DNA from: Macrophomina tecta
Lineage: Eukaryota > Ascomycota > Dothideomycetes > Botryosphaeriales > Botryosphaeriaceae
NCBI GenBank assembly: GCA_024180945.1
Contig: JAKSGN010000005.1
Span: 1-64,000, forward strand
Direction: 5' to 3'
DNA: 64,000 nucleotides
A program made the position numbers and the translations under genes. The notes beneath the pieces are model-generated. The model made no database searches. It was not told the DNA's origin and saw only the letters and a program-made list of their open reading frames with translations. Positions within the stretch are counted from its first letter, which is position 1. Each line of letters begins with the position of its first letter. Shown here piece by piece: positions 1 through 17,256 of the stretch.

Positions 1-1090
1 TGAATTTGTACGCCGGGCTGTCCCAATCGTGCTGCCGCTGCGTCCGCATAAAAAACATCAACACCTGCTCCCACGACCGGGCACGGTCCTTGATCGATTC
101 CTCGTCCATATACGGCTGCAACGGCTGATATCGGGTCTGATGCTTCTCCGTCCTGATCGCCTGCATCCGCATCGACACGCCCGCCCGCTTCGCCACGCTC
201 TCCTGACTAATGCGGGCAACGTCCTCCATCGCCTGCCACACGGCCGTCTCGATCGGCTCGTTCGGATCGTCTTTTTCCTTATCGGCGGGCTTCCATCGTC
301 TGTTCTTCTTTTCGTCCTCCTCGCCGCCCGGCTTGACGATGCACCGCGACAAATCCTCGCGGTTCTTGCCGGCCAAATACTTCTGCCACTGCGTCCGCTC
401 CAACCACGGGTTCGCCTGATCCCTCTCGGCGTCCTGAACGACGGCGGCTGCCTCCTTCTCGGCCTGCTCGAACCGGGCCTGCATCTGCTGCCACGCCCGC
501 GTCCACGTGTCCCTGCTACTATCGTTGCTGCCGCCGTTGCCGTCTTCGCGCGTTCCATTCTCTTCCTCTGCCGGTTGCTGCACCTCGAAATACTGCGATC
601 CGTGCCGGCTCGTGAAAAATCGCTGACAATGCACCCGCCTCACTGCTTCCTGAAACCGCCTCTCGACCCGCTCGCCCTTGCTCTTGCCCGACCCGCCCTT
701 TCGGCTGCCGGCCGACCACTGATGCTCGATGCGCCAATGCTTCTTCATCGTCATTCTGTCCCGGCAAATATACCGGCACCCGTCGGGCTGTAACTCGCAC
801 ATTAACCCGTCCTGATGCAACGGCAACTCCGGGATCGGCCTGTCGATGCCTGCGGGCGCCTGAAATTCTCCGGGGGACCTGATTAATCCGGCAAACGCCA
901 CGACCTCCTCCGCGATCGCCTCTGCGTTCTTTCCGCTGATGCCGTGATGTCTGCCCTGCAAATGCCCTGCCACCTGATCCGGCCACACCGCGTGCCGGCA
1001 CTCCTTGCACACGACGACTCCAAATTCTCCTAACCCTAAATGATGAAAATACTCCGCTGTTTCGGCCATGTTGACTTGCGCTTGCTGCAT
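1..1090 (-). CDS. Telomere-linked RecQ-type helicase, N-terminal part, unit 1 (runs off left edge)
   Basis: The reading frame opens at the ATG at 1090-1088 (protein starts MQQAQVNMAE) and stays open for 363 codons to the window edge. It holds a first finger (CKECRHAVW then two spaced His), a second finger (CRYICRDRM...KKHW..EH) and the motif CQRFFTSRHGSQYFEV. This pattern is typical of the OrsD-like N-terminus (Pfam PF12013, from memory) found in fungal telomere-linked helicases. A long charged segment follows. The recombinase-like and helicase regions seen in unit 2 would lie to the left, outside the window. Unlike units 2, 3 and 4, this copy shows no frameshift, so it is the best candidate for a functional gene in the array. 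Expected role: nuclear, ATP-dependent DNA unwinding at chromosome ends. The function is inferred from the family; the open frame is seen directly. Confidence 0.8.
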   Translation of the reverse strand, partial: MQQAQVNMAETAEYFHHLGLGEFGVVVCKECRHAVWPDQVAGHLQGRHHGISGKNAEAIAEEVVAFAGLIRSPGEFQAPAGIDRPIPELPLHQDGLMCELQPDGCRYICRDRMTMKKHWRIEHQWSAGSRKGGSGKSKGERVERRFQEAVRRVHCQRFFTSRHGSQYFEVQQPAEEENGTREDGNGGSNDSSRDTWTRAWQQMQARFEQAEKEAAAVVQDAERDQANPWLERTQWQKYLAGKNREDLSRCIVKPGGEEDEKKNRRWKPADKEKDDPNEPIETAVWQAMEDVARISQESVAKRAGVSMRMQAIRTEKHQTRYQPLQPYMDEESIKDRARSWEQVLMFFMRTQRQHDWDSPAYKF

Positions 1091-1488
1091 GCTCGTTATT
1101 TCGCTGCTATCTGCTTATTCTTTCGCTGCGTTGATGCGGGAAACCACCCTTTGCTATCGAACTAACTACTTTAACCCTTGCTCTTAACTCTCTGACTCGG
1201 CGCCTGCTGCACGTTCGCGCGCTGCGTGCCTACCCGGCGAATGCGCGCTCTTTAACCACTACCGCGCTCGGGCCGCTCTTACCCCATCAACCTTACCCTA
1301 ACTTACCCCAACTGCCAAATTACGCTCGAACACGCGATCGGGCGGGCATGTCATACGCAAAAATTCTTATCGCCTAACCGCGCTCTGCAACATATCTTAA
1401 TTTAACGCGAATCCGACATCTTTTTTCTGAATCGACCGTACTCAATCGACCGTACTCGTAACCCTAACCCTAAACCTTAATTTTGTAT
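1091..1488 (-). promoter_or_regulatory. Upstream region of TLH unit 1
   Basis: About 400 bases upstream of the unit 1 start, repeated almost base for base at 5497-5891, 7187-7584, 8872-9269 and, without a gene, in units 5 and 6. It presumably carries the promoter, but I see no convincing TATA box. Near its outer edge are two direct copies of AATCGACCGTACTC (from about 1430 and 1443), followed by a telomere-type tract. The near identity between copies suggests recent duplication or gene conversion. Confidence 0.6.
1459..1476 (+). repeat. Interstitial telomeric tract (TAACCC)2 plus variant
   Basis: TAACCC TAACCC TAAACC lies between the direct AATCGACC half-sites and the 47-bp repeat. The C-rich strand is the + strand, the orientation expected for a left chromosome end. 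The same tract recurs at 5862-5879, 7555-7572, 9732-9749 and 10212-10229, and as the variant TAACCC TACCCC at 9240-9257. At two to three repeats it is too short to be a working telomere. It marks every unit junction. Confidence 0.9.
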
Positions 1489-1535
1489 GGGACCTGAATC
1501 GACCCTTATAACGGTCGATTCACTCCTTTCGGTTT
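1489..1535. repeat. 47-bp junction repeat with 9-8-9 inverted repeat (one copy)
   Basis: The unit begins GGGACCT and ends TTTCGGTTT. Inside, at 1496-1521, a left arm GAATCGACC and a right arm GGTCGATTC are perfect inverted copies separated by the 8-bp spacer CTTATAAC. This is the constant right-hand edge of each TLH unit. To its right the sequence changes from unit to unit. The arm sequence also occurs twice upstream as direct half-sites. The architecture resembles a tyrosine-recombinase crossover site; it could also be only a hairpin or a protein-binding palindrome. Confidence 0.85.
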
Positions 1536-1536
1536 G

Positions 1537-4500
1537 GCATCATGCTACGCGGCTCGCCCGCGTGCACGATCAACCTGATGCCCGGTATATCGATCCCCAT
1601 CCCCAACGCGCTCGTCGCCACTACCACCCGTTCTCTACCCACTCGGAAATCCTCCAACACCTCGTCCTTTCGCCGCTCGCTCATGTCTGCCCGGAATTCC
1701 TCGCACGCGAACCGGCCTGCTTTCGCCAACCGCTCCACCTCCCCCCGCGTCTTGCAATAAACTACTCCTTTCCCCTCCGCCGACGCCCTCAACTCCCGAT
1801 CCACTAACTCCGCTACCAAATCCTCCTGCTCCTTCCTACTACTCTCCTTCCTGCCAACCACCCGATACCGCACGTTCTTCCGCACCGTCGACCCCCTAAA
1901 CATCTTTACCTCGTCCGCCCTCCATCCCATCCTTTTATACAACCTGCTCTCCTCCGCCGCCGGCAATGTCGCCGTTAATAATATCATCTGCGTCTCTACT
2001 CCCGCCAACTTGCCCAACTGCTGCAAATGCTTCCGAAAATCCACCCTATCGTTCAACACGACGTGACATTCGTCCACCACGATACGGTCCAACTGCCTCG
2101 TCCGCCTGATGCGCTTTAAAAACGTCCCGAACTCCTCGCCCACCGCCGCCTCCGGCGTCACCAACACGATCGACTCCGCATCCGCCTGCCGCCTGCCGCC
2201 CCATACCGCGCACCGCACCCCCGCCTCATCGCACCGCCGCTTCATATCCTTCCGCAACGACTTCAACGGCACCACTACTACTGTCGTGCCACCGGGTTCT
2301 GCCCACGCCGGCAATGTGAATAACACGCTCTTGCCCGCCCCCGTCGGCATCACTGCCACCACGGGGCTGTGCCCTGCCTTGATCGCATCCAATGCCGGCT
2401 CCTGCACGCTGCGGAAAACCGCCTCCTTACCCACCAACTGCCGCAACTGTTCCTCGGCATTCATCTTGTTTAACCGGATCCAACGATCCAACCGCTCCTC
2501 TTCCGCCTCCTCCTCGAACGGGCACCGCTTGCGCTTTTTGCTCGTCGCCTTGCTATCCGCCGCCTCGTTCCGCTCGTCTGCCTGACCCGTCGGTTCGAAT
2601 CCTAAAAATCGGTGCCAATCGACGCTGCACGCCCGGAACTGCTGCCTTCGTTCTGCCACCCACCCCAACTGCTCCATGATTCCCCTCGCATATACGATTC
2701 CCGCCACGTGCGACGTGTGCCCTGCCTGCGCGTCCGCGATCGCCGCCGCCATGCCGTCCTCATCCTGCCGCTGCTCGCTATCGTCTCCCTCTCCATCGTC
2801 CTGCCTGAACGCCGTCGGCCCGCGGATCCACTGCCTGCTGATTGCTATCGCGATATCACGATACGCCCGCACCGTGACTTCATGCCCTAACCCCGCTGCT
2901 GTCTCCCGCTTAATCGCCTGTCTCATCCGCTCCGTCGTCCACTTCTTGCCCCCGGGCTCGGCTGCCCATAAATGCGCGGACAACGGCGGCGACTGCTCCT
3001 GCTCCTGCTGCTGTTGCTCCTGCTGCTGCTCCTGCTGTTGCTCCTGCTGTTGCTCCTGCTGCTGCCCCTGCCGCTGCCCCTGCTGCTGCTTGCCTCGTAT
3101 CAACACCTCAATTCTCTGCTGAAACGGCAAAACCAACCACAAATACCACACCAACACCTCGCCCACCTCGCGCGGTAAATACCGGTGAATGATCTTGACA
3201 TCTCCCTGCAACGCGTACCCCTTGTGATACCGCGTAACAAACACGACCATCCCGTCTTCGATGAAAATATGCCGGTGCCCCGCCTCCGCCGTGTTGCTGT
3301 GCCTGATGCTTAATATCTCCGGCCCTCTCGCCGGCTGCCCGCCCGTTATGTGCATCAACACCAATAACTTTTCCTTAAACGCCGCAACCCGGCTCATCCA
3401 ATCCGATACCGCCTCGCGGCTCAACCCCGACGCCGTCCCCTGCCGGGTGAACCGCTTTCTGACCGCGCCGTTCTGCATAATCTGCTCGAACAACCACGAC
3501 CTCCCGTCCACGGGGAATCTGTTGCGCTGATCCTGCAAAAAATTCCACCCTCGACGGCCGTTTGTCGGGTCGTCATGCATCGAATGCCACGGCACCGCGG
3601 GCACCTCCCGCCGGCTTTTGCAAAACAACAAATCCTCGACCAACACCTGCGCCGTCGTCTGCGCCAAACCGTGTACCATCCCGCGGAACTGCGCCATGCT
3701 GAACGATATGTTCTTGTACTCCAACACATCTCTATCCCTCCACCCGACGTGCCCTTTCGCCGTTGTGTTGAAATGAATCTTCATACCATACGCCCGCAAA
3801 TCCAAAAACCACTGCATCGGGCTGTCGCTGCCGCGGACCATGAAATCGTCCATCATCTTGTTCACCCACTGCAACCCGCTCCTGCCGGGGCGCCTGCTGC
3901 TCTCGCCGCTTCTACTGCTTCCCCCGCTTTCGTATCCACTATCTTCGAAATCACACGGCCTCGCGCTCGCGCTAAAATGCTCGTTCTCCTCCGCCGGCGT
4001 TGCTACCTCGAATGCCTTCTGAATGACCATGAAATGCGCCACCTTGATCAACGCCGATAAAATCGACCCGTATGTCTCCGGGCCTCTCCAACTGTTGTCC
4101 GTCGGGTCGACTCCTAACACGGCGGCGGCGCATACCAACGCACTCTCGTACTCGCGCTCGACGAATCGTTGATTCAACAACTCGATGCAAAAATCTAAAC
4201 ATGCCCGTTGAATCGGGGTTAATTTTTGCCACTTCTCTTCGTCCTTCTCGTTTGTCTCGCTTTCTTCCTCGTCGCCTTCCCCTTCTCCCTCCTCTTCTGC
4301 TTCCTCGTTATCTTCGTTTTCTTTGTTACTTTCTTCCCCATCTTCGCCTCCTTCTACCTCCCGCTCTGCCTCTTCGACCAATCTGACGAATGCTTCGAAC
4401 TGACTGCGGGTGAATTTGTACGCCGGGCTGTCCCAATCGTGCTGCCGCTGCGTCCGCATAAAAAACATCAACACCTGCTCCCACGACCGGGCACGGTCCT

Positions 4501-5496
4501 TGATCGATTCCTCGTCCATATACGGCTGCAACGGCTGATATCGGGTCTGATGCTTCTCCGTCCTGATCGCCTGCATCCGCATCGACACGCCCGCCCGCTT
4601 CGCCACGCTCTCCTGACTAATGCGGGCAACGTCCTCCATCGCCTGCCACACGGCCGTCTCGATCGGCTCGTTCGGATCGTCTTTTTCCTTATCGGCGGGC
4701 TTCCATCGTCTGTTCTTCTTTTCGTCCTCCTCGCCGCCCGGCTTGACGATGCACCGCGACAAATCCTCGCGGTTCTTGCCGGCCAAATACTTCTGCCACT
4801 GCGTCCGCTCCAACCACGGGTTCGCCTGATCCCTCTCGGCGTCCTGAACGACGGCGGCTGCCTCCTTCTCGGCCTGCTCGAACCGGGCCTGCATCTGCTG
4901 CCACGCCCGCGTCCACGTGTCCCTGCTACTATCGTTGCTGCCGCCGTTGCCGTCTTCGCGCGTTCCATTCTCTTCCTCTGCCGGTTGCTGCACCTCGAAA
5001 TACTGCGATCCGTGCCGGCTCGTGAAAAATCGCTGACAATGCACCCGCCTCACTGCTTCCTGAAACCGCCTCTCGACCCGCTCGCCCTTGCTCTTGCCCG
5101 ACCCGCCCTTTCGGCTGCCGGCCGACCACTGATGCTCGATGCACCAATGCTTCTTCATCGTCATTCTGTCGCAAATATACCGGCACCTCGAGGCTGTAAC
5201 TCGCACATTAACCCGTCCTGATGCAACGGCAACTCCGGGATCGGCCTGTCGATGCCTGCGGGCGCCTGAAATTCTCCGGGGGACCTGATTAATCCGGCAA
5301 ACGCCACGACCTCCTCCGCGATCGCCTCTGCGTTCTTTCCGCTGATGCCGTGATGTCTGCCCTGCAAATGCCCTGCCACCTGATCCGGCCACACCGCGTG
5401 CCGGCACTCCTTGCACACGACGACTCCAAATTCCCCTAACCCTAAATGATGAAAATACTCCGCTGTTTCGGCCATGTTGACTTGCGCTTGCTGCAT
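1537..5496 (-). pseudogene. Telomere-linked RecQ helicase, unit 2: frameshifted and cut off before motif VI
   Basis: The start is the ATG at 5496. The N-terminal frame (C2H2 fingers) breaks near 5185, where three bases and then one base are missing relative to units 1, 3 and 4. The frame after the break stays open from about 5185 down to 1520. In order it encodes the second finger, CQRFF..YFEV, an acidic Glu-rich linker (about 4230-4340), a Ser/Gly linker, a tyrosine-recombinase-like segment (about 2690-3360), a Gln-rich tract (about 2985-3090) and RecQ helicase motifs: MPTGAGKS near 2340, DECH near 2072, TATLP near 1970. The protein ends after HAGEPRSMM at the junction at 1536, then reads five foreign residues to a stop at 1520. 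Motif VI (GRAGR) and the RecQ zinc region are missing, so an active helicase is unlikely. Confidence 0.85.
2985..3090 (-). repeat. Polyglutamine-coding (CAG/CTG) minisatellite in TLH unit 2
   Basis: An imperfect 15-bp tandem repeat of CTG/TTG triplets separated by CTC on the + strand. On the minus strand it encodes runs of QQQ broken by E. It sits inside the recombinase-like segment, between the Lys and second Arg motifs. The same position in the 11549-16595 gene carries a different repeat (QQQQR units), so the two tracts expanded separately. Confidence 0.85.
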
Positions 5497-5940
5497 GCTC
5501 GTTATTTCGCTGCTATCTGCTTATTCTTTCGCTGCGTTGATGCGGGAAACCACCCTTTGCTATCGAACTAACTACTTTAACCCTTGCTCTTAACTCTCTG
5601 ACTCGGCGCCTGCTGCACGTTCGCGCGCTGCGTGCCTACCCGGCGAATGCGCGCTCTTTAACCACTACCGCGCTCGGGCCGCCCTTACCCCATCAACCTT
5701 ACCCTAACTTACCCCAACTGCCAAATTACGCTCGAACACGCGATCGGGCGGGCATGTCATACGCAAAAATTCTTATCGCCTAACCGCGCTCTGCAACATA
5801 TCTTAATTTAACGCGAATCCGACATCTTTCTGAATCGACCGTACTCAATCGACCGTACTCGTAACCCTAACCCTAAACCTTAATTTTGTATGGGACCTGA
5901 ATCGACCCTTATAACGGTCGATTCACTCCTTTTCCGGTTT
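5497..5940. repeat. Unit 2 right end: TLH upstream region, telomeric tract and 47-bp repeat
   Basis: A near-identical copy of 1091-1535: upstream region, two AATCGACC half-sites, TAACCC tract at 5862-5879 and one junction repeat at 5892-5940. This copy of the junction repeat is 49 bp, with two extra bases before CGGTTT. Immediately to its right, TLH coding sequence resumes in mid-gene, in the acidic linker. Confidence 0.85.
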
Positions 5941-7186: not shown

Positions 7187-7631
7187 GCTCGTTATTTCGC
7201 TGCTATCTGCTTATTCTTTCGCTGCGTTGATGCAGGAAACCACCCTTTGCTATCGAACTAACTACTTTAACCCTTGCTCTTAACTCTCTGACTCGGCGCC
7301 TGCTGCACGTTCGCGCGCTGCGTGCCTACCCGGCGAATGCGCGCTCTTTAACCACTACCGCGCTCGGGCCGCTCTTACCCCATCAACCTTACCCTAACTT
7401 ACCCCAACTGCCAAATTACGCTCGAACACGCGATCGGGCGGGCATGTCATACGCAAAAATTCTTATCGCCTAACCGCGCTCTGCAACATATCTTAATTTA
7501 ACGCGAATCCGACATCTTTTTTCTGAATCGACCGTACTCAATCGACCGTACTCGTAACCCTAACCCTAAACCTTAATTTTGTATGGGACCTGAATCGACC
7601 CTTATAACGGTCGATTCACTCCTTTCGGTTT
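7187..7631. repeat. Unit 3 right end: upstream region, telomeric tract and 47-bp repeat
   Basis: The same architecture as 1091-1535, with a TAACCC tract at 7555-7572 and a single junction repeat at 7585-7631. The repeat's terminal GTTTG overlaps the GTTTG of the truncated TLH gene that follows, a 5-base microhomology at the join. Confidence 0.85.
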
Positions 7632-8871: not shown

Positions 8872-9410
8872 GCTCGTTATTTCGCTGCTATCTGCTTATT
8901 CTTTCGCTGCGTTGATGCGGGAAACCACCCTTTGCTATCGAACTAACTACTTTAACCCTTGCTCTTAACTCTCTGACTCGGCGCCTGCTGCACGTTCGCG
9001 CGCTGCGTGCCTACCCGGCGAATGCGCGCTCTTTAACCACTACCGCGCTCGGGCCGCTCTTACCCCATCAACCTTACCCTAACTTACCCCAACTGCCAAA
9101 TTACGCTCGAACACGCGATCGGGCGGGCATGTCATACGCAAAAATTCTTATCGCCTAACCGCGCTCTGCAACATATCTTAATTTAACGCGAATCCGACAT
9201 CTTTTTTCTGAATCGACCGTACTCAATCGACCGTACTCGTAACCCTACCCCTAAACCTTAATTTTGTATGGGACCTGAATCGACCCTTATAACGGTCGAT
9301 TCACTCCTTTCGGTTTGGGACCTGAATCGACCCTTATAACGGTCGATTCACTCCTTTCGGTTTGGGACCTGAATCGACCCTTATAACGGTCGATTCACTC
9401 CTTTCGGTTT
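8872..9410. repeat. Unit 4 right end with three tandem 47-bp junction repeats
   Basis: The upstream region is followed by a variant telomeric tract (9240-9257, with TACCCC in place of TAACCC). Then come three perfect head-to-tail copies of the 47-bp repeat at 9270-9316, 9317-9363 and 9364-9410. Each copy contains the 9-8-9 inverted repeat. Tandem multiplication of the site occurs only in units 4 to 6, the oldest layers of the array if it grows leftwards. Confidence 0.9.
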
Positions 9411-9902
9411 GGGAAACCACCCTTTGCTATCGAACTAACTACTTTAACCCTTGCTCTTAACTCTCTGACTCGGCGCCTGCTGCACGTTCGCGCGCTACGT
9501 GCCTACCCGGCGAATGCGCGCTCTTTAACCACTACCGCGCTCGGGCCGCTCTTACCCCATCAACCTTACCCTAACTTACCCCAACTGCCAAATTACGCTC
9601 GAACACGCGATCGGGCGGGCATGTCATACGCAAAAATTCTTATCGCCTAACCGCGCTCTGCAACATATCTTAATTTAACGCGAATCCGACATCTTTTTTC
9701 TGAATCGACCGTACTCAATCGACCGTACTCGTAACCCTAACCCTAAACCTTAATTTTGTATGGGACCTGAATCGACCCTTATAACGGTCGATTCACTCCT
9801 TTCGGTTTGGGACCTGAATCGACCCTTATAACGGTCGATTCACTCCTTTCGGTTTGGGACCTGAATCGACCCTTATAACGGTCGATTCACTCCTTTCGGT
9901 TT
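9411..9902. repeat. Unit 5: gene-less TLH unit with three 47-bp repeats
   Basis: Begins abruptly at GGGAAACCACC inside the TLH upstream region; in a full unit the same bases follow TGATGC. It has therefore lost the whole gene. It retains the rest of the upstream region, the telomeric tract (9732-9749) and three 47-bp repeats at 9762-9808, 9809-9855 and 9856-9902. The shared GGG at the join is a microhomology. Confidence 0.9.
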
Positions 9903-10335
9903 GGGAAACCACCCTTTGCTATCGAACTAACTACTTTAACCCTTGCTCTTAACTCTGACTCGGCGCCTGCTGCGTTCGCGCGCTGAAATTGCCGGCGAAT
10001 GCGCGCTCTTTAACCACCCGCGCTCGGGCCGCTCTCACCCCATCAACCTTACCTAACACCCCAACTGCCATTACGCTCCGAACACGCGATCGGGCGGGCA
10101 TGTCATACCGCAAAAATTCTTATCGCCTAACCGCGCTCTGCAACATATCTTAATTTAACGCGAATCCGACATCTTTTTTCTGAATCGACCGTACTCAATC
10201 GACCGTACTCGTAACCCTAACCCTAAACCTTAATTTTGTATGGGACCTGAATCGACCCTTATAACGGTCGATTCACTCCTTTCGGTTTGGGACCTGAATC
10301 GACCCTTATAACGGTCGATTCACTCCTTTCGGTTT
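9903..10335. repeat. Unit 6: gene-less, indel-rich TLH unit with two 47-bp repeats
   Basis: Also starts at GGGAAACCACC. Between about 9955 and 10110 it carries many small deletions and substitutions not seen in units 1 to 5, consistent with being the oldest layer. The telomeric tract is at 10212-10229 and two 47-bp repeats are at 10242-10288 and 10289-10335. The second repeat abuts LINE sequence directly. Confidence 0.85.
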
Positions 10336-11548: not shown

Positions 11549-13959
11549 TCACCCCTCCCCGCCTATGCTATCTACCCGCCGCGCCAACCATAAAAATTCC
11601 CAAACTAAATTATTACTCTCCACCTCTGCCGTATCCCGCTTTCGCCCTAAATACCCGACCACACTCTCCTCCTGCTCTGCATCTACTCCATTCTCTACTA
11701 TCTGCTGCAACCACCTTCTCCAAACTGCCCCGTACCCGTGCTTGATCCCGTACAATGCCCCCAACAATACTCCACTGTACTGACATTCCCGCCCCGTCCT
11801 TCTCCACCCGCCGCTGTCGTTGCTCTCCCACCCATCACACACGCTCTGCGGCGCCCCGCATCTAAAACACCCCGAATATCGGTCGTACCTGATCGTCCGC
11901 TTTGCCTTGCGCCTTTCATCCTCTGCCTGCTGTCCCTTCTCCGTCATGCAATCGCCAACGTCATGCTCTGCCGGCCACCCTACCGCCTTGCACACCCCAC
12001 AAACCCGCTTCCACCGCCGCAATTGCCGCTCTACTTCCTCCAACTCCTGCCTCTCCTCCTGCGCCCTCGCCGCCTGCCTTATATACGGCCGGGCCCGTTG
12101 CTGCTCCTGCCTACGGAATATCTCCCTGCTCTTTTCCCGCTCTACCTGCTCCCGCTCCACCCGCTCTCTTTCTATTCGCTCCTTCTCCATTTGCCCCCTT
12201 TCTATTTGCTCCCTCTCCGCCTGCTCTACCTCTGCTCCTCGCCTTTCCCCGTCTCCCCCGCAATTATCACACAATTCTTCGCCATCCTCGCATGAAATTC
12301 GCCCCCTCCGGCCATCAAAATACTCGTCCATGATGATACGGCGGCACTGCCCGCTTGCCGGATCCGTATACTGCTCGACCAACTTATCCTCCACCTCCCC
12401 ACCTCCCCCTCTGACCACAATTGCCTCGCTCCTTCTGCCGTCTCTCCCTGCCCTGCCGCTCTCCTGCCCGTAATCCATCATGCTGCGCGGCTCGCCCGCA
12501 TGCACAATCAACCTAATGTCCGGAATATCAATCCCCATGCCCAACGCGCTCGTCGCCACCACCACTCGCTCTCGGCCTGCCCGGAAATCCTCCAACACTT
12601 CGTCCTTGCGCTGATCGCTTATATCGGCGTGAAATGCTTCGCAAACGAACCGGCCTGCCCCTACCAACCGCTCGACCTCTCCCTTCGTCTTGCAATAAAC
12701 CACCACCTTGCCCTCCGCCGACGCCGTTAACTGCTGCTCCACCAACTCCGTCACCAAATCCTCCTGCTCCTTCCTGCCGCTCCCCTTCCCACCTACCACC
12801 CTATACTGCACGTTCTTGCGCACCGTCGACCCCCTAAACATCTTCACTTCGTCCGCCATCCACCCCATCCGCTTGTATAACCTGCCCTCCTCCGCCGGCG
12901 GCAACGTCGCCGTCAACAACACCATCTGCGTCTCCGCCCCCGCCAACTTGCCCAATCGCTGCAAATGCTTGCGAAAATCCACTCGGTCGTTCAACACGAC
13001 GTGACATTCGTCCACGACGATCCGGTCCAACTGCCTCGTCCGCCTGATGCGCTTTAAAAACGTCCCGAACTCCTCGCCCACCGCCGCCTCCGGCGTCACC
13101 AATACAATCGACTCCGCGTCCGGCTGCTGCCTGCCGCCCCACACCGCGCACCTTACGCCCGCCTCTTTGCACCGCCGCCTCATATCCTTGCGCAACGACT
13201 TTAACGGCACTACTACCACCGTCGTGCCCCCGGGCTCTGCCCACGCCGGCAACATGAACAACACGCTCTTGCCCGCCCCCGTCGGCATCACCGCCACCAC
13301 GGGGCTATACCCGGCCTTTATTGCCTCCATCGCCGGCTTCTGCACGCTGCGGAACACCGCCTCCTTGCCTACCAACTGCTTCAACTGCTCCTCGGCGTTC
13401 ATCTTCCTCAACCGGGTCCGGCGGTTCAACCGCTCCTCGTCGGCCTCATCCTCGAACGGGCACCGCTTGCGCTTCTTGCTTATCATCTTGCCGTCCATCT
13501 GTTCGTCCCGTTCGTACTGTTCGTCTGCCTGGCGGGTCGATTCGAACCCCAAAAATCGATGCCAATCGATGCTGCACGCTCGAAACTTCTGCCTCCGCTC
13601 CGCCACCCATCCCAACTGCTCCATGATGCCTCGCGCGTATATAATGCCTGCTACGTGCGACGTGTGTCCTGCCTGCGCATCGGCAATCGCTGCTGCCGCA
13701 TCGTCTTCATCCTGCGGCCCTTCATCATCTCCTTCCCCATTATCCTGCCTGAATGCCGTCGGTCCTCTGATCCACTGCCTGCTGATTGCTATTGCGATGT
13801 CGCGGTACGCCTGCACGGTAATCTCATGCCCCAAACCGGCGGCCGTCTCACGCTTCATCGCCTGCCTCATCCGCTCTGTCGTCCACCTCTTGCCACCGGG
13901 CTCGGGCGCCCACAAATGCGCTGACAACGGCGGCAACTGCGGCGGCTTTTGCCTTTGAT

Positions 13960-14080
13960 TTTGCCTCTGTCTCTGCTGTTGTTGCCTCTGCTGTTGTTGC
14001 CTCTGCTGTTGTTGCCTCTGCTGTTGTTGCCTCTGCTGTTGTTGCCCCTGCTGTTGTTGCCCCTGCATCTGCTCCTGCGG
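13960..14080 (-). repeat. Polyglutamine-coding 15-bp minisatellite in the full-length TLH gene
   Basis: About five or more tandem 15-bp units of the type TGTTGCCTCTGCTGT on the + strand encode repeated QQQQR on the minus strand. The tract lies between the Lys motif (RYHKGY) and the second Arg motif (AYRDIAIA) of the recombinase-like segment, like the QQQE tract in unit 2, but with a different unit. A length-variable insertion in an otherwise conserved domain suggests a surface loop. Confidence 0.9.
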
Positions 14081-14984
14081 ATTGCCTCGCATCAACACCT
14101 CCATTCGCTGCTGAAACGGCAAAATCAACCATAAATACAACACCAATAACTCGCCCACCTCGCGGGGCAAATATCGATGAATAATCTTGACGTCCCCTTG
14201 CAACGCGTACCCCTTGTGATACCGCGTCACAAACACGACCATGCCGTCCTCGATGAAAATGTGCCGGTGCCCTGCCTCGGCTGTGTTGCTGTGCCTGATG
14301 CTTAATATCTCGGGGCCTCTCCCCGGCTGCCCGCCCGTGATATGCATCAACACCAACAACTTCTCCTTGAACGCGGCCACGCGGCCCATCCAATCCAACG
14401 CGGCCTCGCGGCTCAACCCCGACGCCGTCCCCTGCCGGGTGAACCGCCTTCTGACCGCGCCGTTCTGCATAATCTGCTCGAACAACCACGACCTCCCGTC
14501 CACGGGGAATCTGTTGCGCTGATCCTGCAAAAAATTCCACCCTCGACGGCCGTTTGTCGGGTCGTCATGCATCGAATGCCACGGCACCGCGGGCACCTCC
14601 CGCCGGCTTTTGCAAAACAACAAATCCTCCACCAACACCTGCGCCGTCGTCTGTGCCAACCGGTGCACCATACCGCGGAACTGTGCCATGCTGAACGATA
14701 CGTTCTTGTACTCCAACACGTCCCTGTTCCTCCACCCAACGTGCCCCTTCGCCGTCGTGTTGAAATGAATCTTCATCCCGTATGCCCGCAAATCCAACCA
14801 CCACTGCATCGGGCTGTCGCTGCCGCGGACCATGAAATCGTCCATCATCTTGTTCACCCACTGCAAACTGCTCCTGCCGAGCTGTCCGGTCCGGTCGTTG
14901 CGGCTGTTGCTCCTACTACCGCCACCACTACTTCCGCCGCTTGCCCCCGCCGCTGCCGCTGCCCCCGCCGCTGCCGCCGCCGCT

Positions 14985-15010
14985 GCTGCTGCTGCTGCTG
15001 CTGCTGCTTT
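14985..15010 (-). repeat. GCT/CTG trinucleotide run in the Ser/Gly linker
   Basis: Uninterrupted CTG triplets on the + strand encode polySer in the N-terminal frame and polyAla in the shifted frame. Together with the neighbouring GC-rich C5 runs this makes the linker prone to slippage. The frameshift of this gene lies in the same linker. Confidence 0.8.
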
Positions 15011-16595
15011 CATACCCGCTATCCTCGAAATTGCACGGCCTTGCGCTCGGGCTATACCGCTCGTCCTCCTCCGCCGGGGTTGCGATTTCAAATGCTTTCT
15101 GAATCACCATGAAATGCGCCACCTTCATCAACGCCGACAAAATCGACGTGTACGTGTCCGGGCCTCTCCAACTATCACCCATCGGGTCAACCCCCAATAC
15201 GGCTGCGGCGCACACCGACGCGCTTTCGTACTCGCACGCGGCGAATCGCTGATTTAACAACTCCATGCAAAAATCCAAACACGCGCGTTGAATGCGGGTT
15301 AACTTCTGCGGTTGACTACTGTCGTCATCATCGCCGTCGCCGTTATCGTCGCTCTCGTCGGCTTCATCGGTTTCTTTGTTATCGGTATTGCTGGTTTCTT
15401 CATCGTCATCGTCGTTTTCTTCGTCCTCGGTTCCGCTGCCGTCTTCCCCCCCTTTACCTCCTGCTACCTTCTCGGCCTCATTCATCAATCTGATAAATGC
15501 CTCCTCTTGACTGCGGGTGAACCTGTACCCCGGGCTGTCCCAATCGTGCTCCCGCTGCGTCCTGATGAAAAACATTAATATCTGCTCCCACGGCCGGACC
15601 CGGTCCTTGATCGACTCCTCGTCTAAATACGGCTGCAACGGCTGATACCGGTTCTGATACTTCTCCGTCCTGATCGCCTGCATCCGCATCGATACGCCTG
15701 CCCTTTTCGCCACGCTCTTCTGACTGATGCGGGCAACGTCCTCCATCGCCTGCCACACCGTCATCTCAATCGGCTTGTACGGGTCGTCTTCTTCTTCTTC
15801 GTCGTCGCCGGGGGCCCTCCACCTCCTCTTGTTTTTGTTGTCATCGCCGCCACCCGGCTCCCTGACGGCCCGCAATAAATCCTCGCGGTTCTTGTTGACC
15901 AAATACTGCTGCCACTTCGTCCGGTCCAACCACGGGTTCGCCTGATCCCTCTCGGCGTCCTGAATGATCGCGGCTGCCGCCTTCTCGGCCTCTTCGAGTT
16001 GTTTCTGCATCTGCTGCCACACCCGGGTCCACGTCGCCCTGCTGCCGCGGTCATCCCCTTCATTGCGGCTGCGCCGGGCCTGATGTTCGCTTGCGTCCTC
16101 CTCCGACTGCTGCACCTCAAAATACTGCGACCCGTGCCGGCTGGTGAAAAATCTTTGACAATGAACGGGTTTCGCCCCCTCCCAAAACCGTCTCTCTACT
16201 CTATCGCTCTTGCTCTTACCTGACCCTCCTCCGGCCCGGCTGCCGCCTGCTGACCACTGATGCTCGTTCCGCCAATGCTTCTTTATCGTCACCTTGTCCC
16301 GGCAAATATACGCGCACCTACCTGCCTCTAACCGGCATAACAACCCATCTTCGTGCAACGGCAACTCCGGAATCGGTCTGCTGACGCTCTGCGGCACCTC
16401 AAACTGCCCGGGGAATCTGATCAATCGGGGCCACGCCCTGACCTCGTCTCCAATGACCTCCGCCTCCTTCCCGGGCATGCCGTGATGCTTGCCCTGTAAA
16501 TGCCCCTCCACCTGATCCGGCCACACGGCGTGCCTGCACTCCTTGCACACCGCGACCTGATGCTCCGCCAAATGATAAAAATGCTCGTTTGCCAT

Positions 16596-17256
16596 TGTTG
16601 ATGTCTGTTCGCGGGACGCGAAAAACGTTTTGAACGGGTTGATCGGGCTAAACGGGCGCTCGAATACGCTCCTTTTTTTAAATGCGACGCGGTATCGCGC
16701 ACCCCTGTTCGCGCCTGAATAAACTTAGTTAACCCTACTTTGAATCAACCTTACCCTAAATCAACCCTACTTTGAATCCACTCTACTGAATCCACTCTGC
16801 TGAATCCACTCTACTGAATCCACTCTACTAAATGCACCCAACTGAACCCACTGCATTCTAAATCTCCCCTTGTGACGGGGCGCTCACCTTTTCGGTTTTT
16901 GAAATGCCATCGTGTCTGCAACCCTAACCCTATTCTGTGCGGCGAGCTTTTGATTTTCCAAACCGTCGCGCTGGTCCGCGCGCGCACCCGCAGCTTGCGC
17001 ACCCCATTAAACTTACCCTAAGTTACCCTATCTCACCAATTATGCCCGAACGGACGGTCGCATCGGCATACTTCTCAATATAATTTTGATCGGGCAGGTG
17101 CGCTCTATTATATATCTCAATTTGACGTAAATCCGGCTTCCTTTCTGAGTCGACCCTACCCTGAGTCGACCGTACTATCCGCCAGGAAACTACCCGACGA
17201 ACTTGTATGAGAGCTCAGTCGACCCTTATAGCAGTAGACTCAACTTTTTTGGTTAG
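16596..17256. promoter_or_regulatory. Upstream region and end of the full-length TLH unit
   Basis: About 660 bases upstream of the TLH start, only distantly related to the array units but built the same way. It has four tandem copies of a 14-bp repeat (TGAATCCACTCTAC type, 16773-16830), a short telomere-like CCCTAACCCTA at 16922-16932, two direct copies of CTGAGTCGACC (17145-17155, 17161-17171) and a decayed inverted repeat at about 17213-17242 around the core CTTATAGC. It ends in TTTTTTGGTTAG, matching the CGGTTTG edge of the 47-bp repeat. At 17257 RIP'd retrotransposon begins abruptly, so this is the right edge of an older TLH unit. Confidence 0.7.

Follow-up and report, generated by a model that had tools for sequence, protein, structure and literature searches.

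Subtelomeric RecQ-like genes were reportedly described in fungi in a 1998 paper on Ustilago. The available excerpts of a 2020 study describe the subtelomeric RecQ helicases of Agaricus bisporus var. burnettii and other fungi as carrying the helicase core alone, without further domains (PMC7473861). According to the accessible parts of other papers, Ustilago possesses UTASa, which contains RecQ, and UTASb, which contains OrsD, with higher expression in telomerase-negative strains (PMC10532341), an OrsD gene corresponds to the recQ gene of Metarhizium (PMC11457142), Fusarium contains telomere-linked helicase (TLH) genes and telomeric retrotransposons (PMC12857005), and Mycosphaerella has subtelomeric RecQ genes (PMC4522978). 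No recombinase domain is reported in TLH or OrsD proteins in the open-access literature, as far as its available excerpts go and with most subscription papers outside its scope; within these bounds, the recombinase-RecQ fusion put forward in the initial annotation of the locus treated here is indeed undescribed.

Here, we analyzed the first 64 kb of contig C5 (JAKSGN010000005.1, positions 1 to 64,000; hereafter the window) of the Macrophomina tecta assembly (GCA_024180945.1; 54.1 Mb, 37 contigs), which contains two TLH units (Table 1). Judged by the named homologues alone, the source would be an ascomycete, probably close to Pleosporales. As judged from their sequences, the TLH proteins very likely include a divergent tyrosine-recombinase-type catalytic domain. 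We consider it probable that they form a family with an OrsD(C2H2)-tyrosine recombinase (YR)-RecQ architecture and an additional OrsD-YR branch, whose divergent tyrosine-recombinase/topoisomerase-IB catalytic domain would act on its own site. The domain had been placed between the C2H2 fingers and the RecQ core of a single protein; its location is confirmed, but, within the window, unit 1 lacks a single continuous frame. It is split over P0003 (14928-16724; C2H2/OrsD) and P0001 (11549-15103; catalytic segment and RecQ core), two different frames on the minus strand that overlap at a GCT repeat. The frame change falls within this repeat (window 14928-15103), and the copy on contig C28 is a single open frame of 1722 aa. 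The frame of unit 2 (P0002) terminates within the helicase, ending in SMMPNRKE and a stop codon.

Table 1. Features of the two TLH units and of the candidate composite sites in the window. Fractions give the number of proteins with the residue among 366 proteins of three clades (7 of them partial over the domain), with gaps excluded from the denominators.
Feature	Position	Strand	Support or remark
Unit 1, OrsD (PF12013) C2H2-type domain in P0003	16257..16583	-	Pfam 4.8e-26
Unit 1, conserved segment preceding the catalytic domain, positioned like a core-binding domain	14402..14860	-	Conservation; role suggested by position
Unit 1, recombinase-type catalytic domain (putative), P0001 residues 235-515	13559..14401	-	Conservation and profile-profile comparison
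Unit 1, Arg I, R262 in GQPGRGPE	14318..14320	-	365/365; pairs with the Cre Arg of LRIAEI
Unit 1, Lys, K297 in YHKGY	14213..14215	-	363/364; four columns from the Cre Lys in the profile alignment
Gln-rich insertion within the catalytic domain, residues 340-391	13931..14086	-	Mostly missing from the 121 compared rows
Unit 1, Arg II, R434 in AYRDIAIA	13802..13804	-	359/360; pairs with the HxxR Arg
Unit 1, His, H480 in AGHTSHVAG	13664..13666	-	Pairs with Cre W / XerC GH
Unit 1, Tyr, Y489, proposed nucleophile	13637..13639	-	354/356; pairs with the Cre/XerC catalytic Tyr
Unit 1, RecQ-type helicase core	12437..13348	-	Pfam DEAD 6e-20, Helicase_C 1.3e-20; PDB RecQ1 9.3e-34
Unit 2 (P0002), open frame	1520..5512	-	Helicase shortened by the junction at ~1537
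Unit 2, counterpart of the unit 1 segment	2570..3886	-	Five residues retained
Unit 2, five residues	R 3326-3328, K 3221-3223, R 2858-2860, H 2717-2719, Y 2690-2692	-	
Core site TGAATCGACC-CTTATAAC-GGTCGATTCA	1495..1522	.	
Core site, 5' side of unit 2	5898..5925	.	
Core site	7591..7618	.	
Three core sites, 47-bp tandem	9276..9397	.	
Three core sites, 47-bp tandem	9768..9889	.	
Two core sites, 47-bp tandem	10248..10322	.	
Two direct accessory half-sites AATCGACCGTACTC	1430..1457	.	Repeated at 5833, 7526, 9211, 9703 and 10183
Unit 1, accessory half-sites TGAGTCGACC x2	17146..17171	.	
Unit 1, core site	17215..17242	.	Gene-strand left arm degenerate

Both units display the residues Arg, Lys, Arg, His and Tyr in the order typical of tyrosine recombinases. 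The motifs quoted in the initial annotation all recur in the translation of P0001, close to the places given for them, and unit 2 shows the same motifs, with the five residues of P0002 at window positions 2690-3328. H480 and Y489 are nine positions apart, leaving the eight intervening residues counted before, and the same distance is found in lambda Int, XerD and Cre. In a first comparison of 121 rows, made up of unit 2 and 120 listed homologues, conservation was almost complete (R, 121/121; E265, 121/121; K, 121/121; R, 120/121; H, 119/120; Y, 120/120), with the Gln-rich stretch largely private to the window copies. The genome also encodes two helicase-less frames, P0128 (881 aa) and P0126 (936 aa), as well as a distant TLH-like frame, P0129. 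Homologue searches with P0126 (300 matches) and P0129 (251 matches) extended the comparison to three clades, A, B and C. In the first search and in these two, 8000 candidates each were scored, yielding 334, 300 and 251 matches, of which the best 120 per search were compared, a set outside which lie the TLHs of Fusarium, Magnaporthe, Ustilago and fission yeast. Over the segment, clades A and B are 35-42% identical, and P0129 of clade C aligns with the window segment piecewise, at 44% and 32% identity. Across all three clades, both Arg residues, the Lys and the Tyr are nearly invariant (Table 1). The Arg I box reads GQPARG(P/T)E (R in 365/365, E in 363/365) and aligns with LRxxE, a box of the T-G-x-R-x-x-E-like type.

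The His positions are more variable. At the position of H480, clades A and B have His (233/234) and clade C has Arg (120/121), so that the loss of catalytic positions in homologues, named at the outset as evidence that would speak against the assignment, is not seen for R, K, R and Y but is seen for the His of clade C. The residue following Arg II is His in clades B (114/116) and C (121/121) and mainly Glu, Gln or Asp in clade A. Three residues before R434, the slot for the His of the HxxR box is occupied by Q in unit 1 and R in unit 2, mostly by A, Q, P or R in clade A (His in 2/123), by L, P, T or Q in clade B and by L (84/121) or His (25/121) in clade C. The reported absence of this His in favor of Gln or Arg therefore holds for the window units but not for the part of clade C whose 25 rows have a His in the slot and thus an HxxR box.

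Profile-profile comparison yielded a localized match over the segment, with R, R, H and Y (Lys apart) in the register of Cre and XerC. We compiled an integrase profile of 56 non-redundant catalytic domains, among them XerC, lambda Int and Cre. Aligned to it by hhalign, the profile of the three clades (190 rows) reached a score of 30.83 (P 2.9e-4, probability 40.6%, 132 columns), pairing ARGTE with LRxxE (Arg I), the Arg of YRH with that of HxxR, H480 with the Trp of Cre and the GH of XerC, and Y489 with the catalytic Tyr. The controls scored 12.9 on average, with a maximum of 22.57, for 200 column shuffles and 14.67 for the reversed profile. When 137 full-length proteins of clades A and C were scanned, the segment starting at GQPAR scored 30.68 and eleven others 9.4-17.95; beside this value, yigA and yigB scored 11.9 and 13.8. 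Single clades gave 28.4, 19.1 and 22.1 and clade pairs 21.9-26.3; the first two-clade alignment was weak (23.3), and addition of the third clade raised it to 30.8. Integrases lacking both lambda Int and the Cre group scored 31.2 and four random halves of the set 25.7-32.2, and all clade and integrase subsets followed the same diagonal, some covering just part of it. As a yardstick, exons of the same genome encoding DUF3435 (PF11917), which we take to be the Starship-captain family, scored 33.7, 26.0 and 20.95 (the last out of register) against the integrase profile, so that the signal of the segment has the size given by a known fungal recombinase family. The catalytic Tyr, the second Arg and the His/Trp position are in register with the superfamily, the latter being Arg in clade C. 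The recombinase-like nature of the domain is thus well supported by the order and spacing of its residues, their distant conservation and the profile match. The segment may be predicted to adopt the fold of these enzymes, with Tyr489 attacking DNA to form a 3'-phosphotyrosine.

The catalytic segment is under purifying selection, with a dN of 0.076, a dS of 1.03 and a dN/dS of 0.073 between units 1 and 2; the corresponding dN/dS of the helicase is 0.126. Just before the domain (14402-14860), dS drops about fivefold, to 0.19, compared with 1.03 within it, which suggests patchy conversion between the units.

Helicase motifs are found in 107/123 proteins of clade A, 0/122 of clade B and 101/121 of clade C, and clade B proteins terminate a median of 62 residues past the Tyr. 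There is, hence, a helicase-less OrsD-recombinase branch. In this genome, the segment has 26 full-length matches of 90-100% identity and a single partial one, many of them lying within ~15 kb of a contig end, as well as more distant and stop-ridden copies. With contig ends as a proxy for chromosome ends, the units thus show both hallmarks of TLHs, a RecQ-type core and a large number of nearly identical copies at chromosome ends. In old copies of the segment (C20:1417540, C8:40227, C14:14140, C11:28453), numerous TAG/TAA stops form a pattern such as repeat-induced point mutation would produce. At locus L041 (C20:82000-89500), a stop-to-stop frame of 936 aa with OrsD and recombinase parts but no helicase is located directly upstream of a clade C OrsD-recombinase-RecQ frame, on the same strand and ~60 bases apart; L042 (C21:664500-670500) and L044 (C1:373500-381500) contain more OrsD-recombinase frames or pieces, again neighboring and co-directional. 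No relative is present in viral contigs.

A candidate target is provided by a composite site located 5' of TLH genes, in which an 8-bp spacer is flanked by inverted arms of 10 bp and accompanied by telomere-like repeats and two direct half-sites. Upstream of unit 2, it reads, on the gene strand, AACCG(G)AAA(A)GGAG, TGAATCGACC-GTTATAAG-GGTCGATTCA, GGTCCCATACAAAATTAAGGTTTAGGGTTAGGGTTAC and the direct half-sites GGTCGATTGA and GGTCGATTCA. In the genome, 139 places match the core at <=2 mismatches (all listed places being exact) and 0 match its reversed control, and the telomere-like GGGTTAGGGTTA begins 52 bp past the core start in 26/28 copies, as counted by hand on contigs C1-C9. The upstream block (~230 bp) of the divergent full-length TLH P0127 is 88% identical to that of unit 2, and the half-site differs between the paralogues: GGTCGATTCA in unit 2, GGTGGATTCA in P0127 and GGTCGACTCA in unit 1. 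P0127 has GGTGGATTCA in both core arms and both direct copies, and unit 1 has the C of GGTCGACTCA in its half-sites, with further changes in the core arms. In each of the three paralogues, the distinguishing base is common to all four half-site copies. When 31 differences were placed randomly among 186 aligned bases, the same change at the same position of four half-sites arose in 13/60000 trials, a figure that local homogenization could lessen for the two direct copies, but hardly for the inverted arms. A degenerate core with other arms was detected at eight places (<=1 mismatch; control 0), two of which are the P0127 sites. The upstream region of unit 1 (16773-16852) additionally contains 5.7 copies of TGAATCCACTCTAC, whose half-site resembles that of P0127 rather than unit 1's own. 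At the loci of helicase-less genes (L041, L042 and L044), no 10-8-10 palindrome passed the filter. It is plausible that the composite site serves as the target of the recombinase and that catalysis takes place there. TLH would bind this site at the 5' end of the unit that encodes it, nick it and exchange strands, and the RecQ motor could then open or resolve the joints. This would favor the multiplication of units and their attachment at chromosome ends, the location of the site and whole-unit tandems.

Several points weigh against this reading. The hhalign probability is 41%, and 2-30% for single clades, with two-clade scores limited to the range given above, and K297 lies four columns off the Cre Lys. 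Pfam, PDB single-sequence and PDB profile searches gave no recombinase match; Phage_integrase (PF00589) in particular matched neither the segment proteins nor anything else in the genome, and the weak Pfam and PDB matches obtained land mainly on the Gln-rich stretch. No match to the integrase profile, which was made from catalytic domains, is seen for the segment preceding the domain (12.75). A His (or Lys) in the HxxR slot is not conserved in any clade, and Arg replaces the GH His in clade C. The unit junctions, moreover, lie ~15 bp outside the core arm rather than in the spacer and are therefore not simple products of core recombination, and homologous recombination between subtelomeres alone could explain the spread of the units.

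The last two points lead to the alternative that fares best, which concerns the site alone and to which we give slightly less than an even chance: that the palindrome and half-sites are an operator in the promoter bound by OrsD (C2H2), an origin or a satellite motif rather than a recombination site, and that units spread by homologous recombination and break-induced replication. The position of the site upstream of the gene would suit an operator. In addition, 17 stretches of 1522 bases, 100% identical to each other, end at one base of the TLH unit (window 1-1522), nine of them at contig base 1 and eight at right-hand positions (two of these eight, on C1 and C7, being verified contig ends), as in ordinary subtelomere homogenization. 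The likeliest explanation for their common stop base may be a collapsed terminal repeat; (TTAGGG)4 is absent from the assembly. The junctions of the exact core sites, covering 19 rows from the window, L039 and L040 and 17 rows from L017-L035, are also compatible with this alternative, since they lie beyond the core, several at short microhomologies and others without. An 8-bp spacer, inverted arms and accessory half-sites are, by contrast, the usual layout of recombinase sites, as in loxP, FRT and lambda att, and the core alone has been multiplied in 47-bp tandems. Furthermore, the element side is constant in the junctions listed, where CAAACC is followed by one or two G and by three or four A, and then by GGAG and the core.

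On the side facing away from the gene, the partner is a TLH cut at three neighboring bases in 16/17 rows of L017-L035; other partners comprise 5' fragments of TLH (two cases), the upstream region, the core itself in the 47-bp tandems and other sequence. By orientation, the truncation would affect the telomeric side of the older unit. No junction within the spacer was found in the junction set, and the junctions do not look like exchange inside the spacer. Rather, they look as if units had been joined repeatedly to shortened ends, always through one fixed end. It is tempting to speculate, although we regard this as unlikely, that TLH units are self-encoded chromosome-end-adding elements, in which a recombinase-helicase would recognize the composite site of its unit and attach new units, always by the same end, to broken or eroded ends. 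If true, telomere-linked helicases would be mobile elements whose healing of chromosome ends relies on a tyrosine recombinase and not on a reverse transcriptase.

Concerning the protein, the domain could be recombinase-derived but non-catalytic, retained for DNA binding or protein contacts. The unconserved HxxR His in all clades and the exchange of the GH His for Arg in clade C are in line with such a role. However, R, K, R and Y are near-invariant despite the low identities between the clades, and an inert scaffold should not have retained the Tyr. Moreover, both His positions vary among known tyrosine recombinases, Cre having Trp at the second, as also aligned here. We hold a non-catalytic role to be rather improbable. 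An unrelated fold, with coincidental motifs and profile score, would agree with the missing Pfam and PDB recombinase matches and an hhalign probability below 50%, but appears very unlikely, given that every clade and integrase subset tried gave one diagonal, that this segment is the one part of TLH that scores and that the aligned residues are among the invariant ones. An ordinary RecQ accessory domain was rejected because PDB RecQ matches begin only at about residue 570. Finally, the enzyme could share this fold but resemble a telomere resolvase or topoisomerase IB and act on chromosome ends without site exchange. This would suit the chromosome-end location and a core that is nearly a full palindrome (central TTATAA), but is very unlikely, as the sites are internal and tandem, with contigs running through them, and no hairpin evidence was seen, none having been sought.

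A recombinase domain of the kind favored here appears to have been overlooked in the TLH family so far. Together with the helicase-less OrsD-recombinase sister branch and the candidate site covarying between paralogues, it would make the possible role of these genes in "telomere maintenance" directly testable, and a candidate target site beside the gene provides a testable idea for how TLHs spread between chromosome ends.

Among known systems, DUF3435 proteins are likewise fungal and occur in the same genome, and their ITG..RPG..L and TKGYLG boxes are similar by eye; the direct profile comparison, however, is weak (17.1-18.2), and the scanned segment proteins have no PF11917 match. Several DUF3435 genes of this genome (L047-L054) have Cys/His-rich ends that resemble C2H2 fingers by eye. 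Cryptons, fungal recombinase transposons with an added DNA-binding domain (GCR1_C-type) and defined element ends, are alike in their general description, which combines a fungal recombinase with a DNA-binding domain. Bacterial and phage tyrosine recombinases (PF00589; Cre, XerC, lambda Int) share the R, R, H and Y register, a nearby K and the H-Y spacing. Unlike them, the TLH segment shows no detectable family membership and has a longer stretch between Arg II and His, and the domain is joined to OrsD and, in two clades, to RecQ. The closest relatives are the fungal TLHs of Ustilago (UTASa), Metarhizium, Magnaporthe and Fusarium, which, in the accessible parts of the respective papers, are likewise subtelomeric and multi-copy, with a RecQ core and, in many cases, OrsD (PMC12857005, PMC10532341, PMC7473861, PMC11457142). 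What sets the present family apart from these descriptions is the putative recombinase-type domain, present in all three clades compared.

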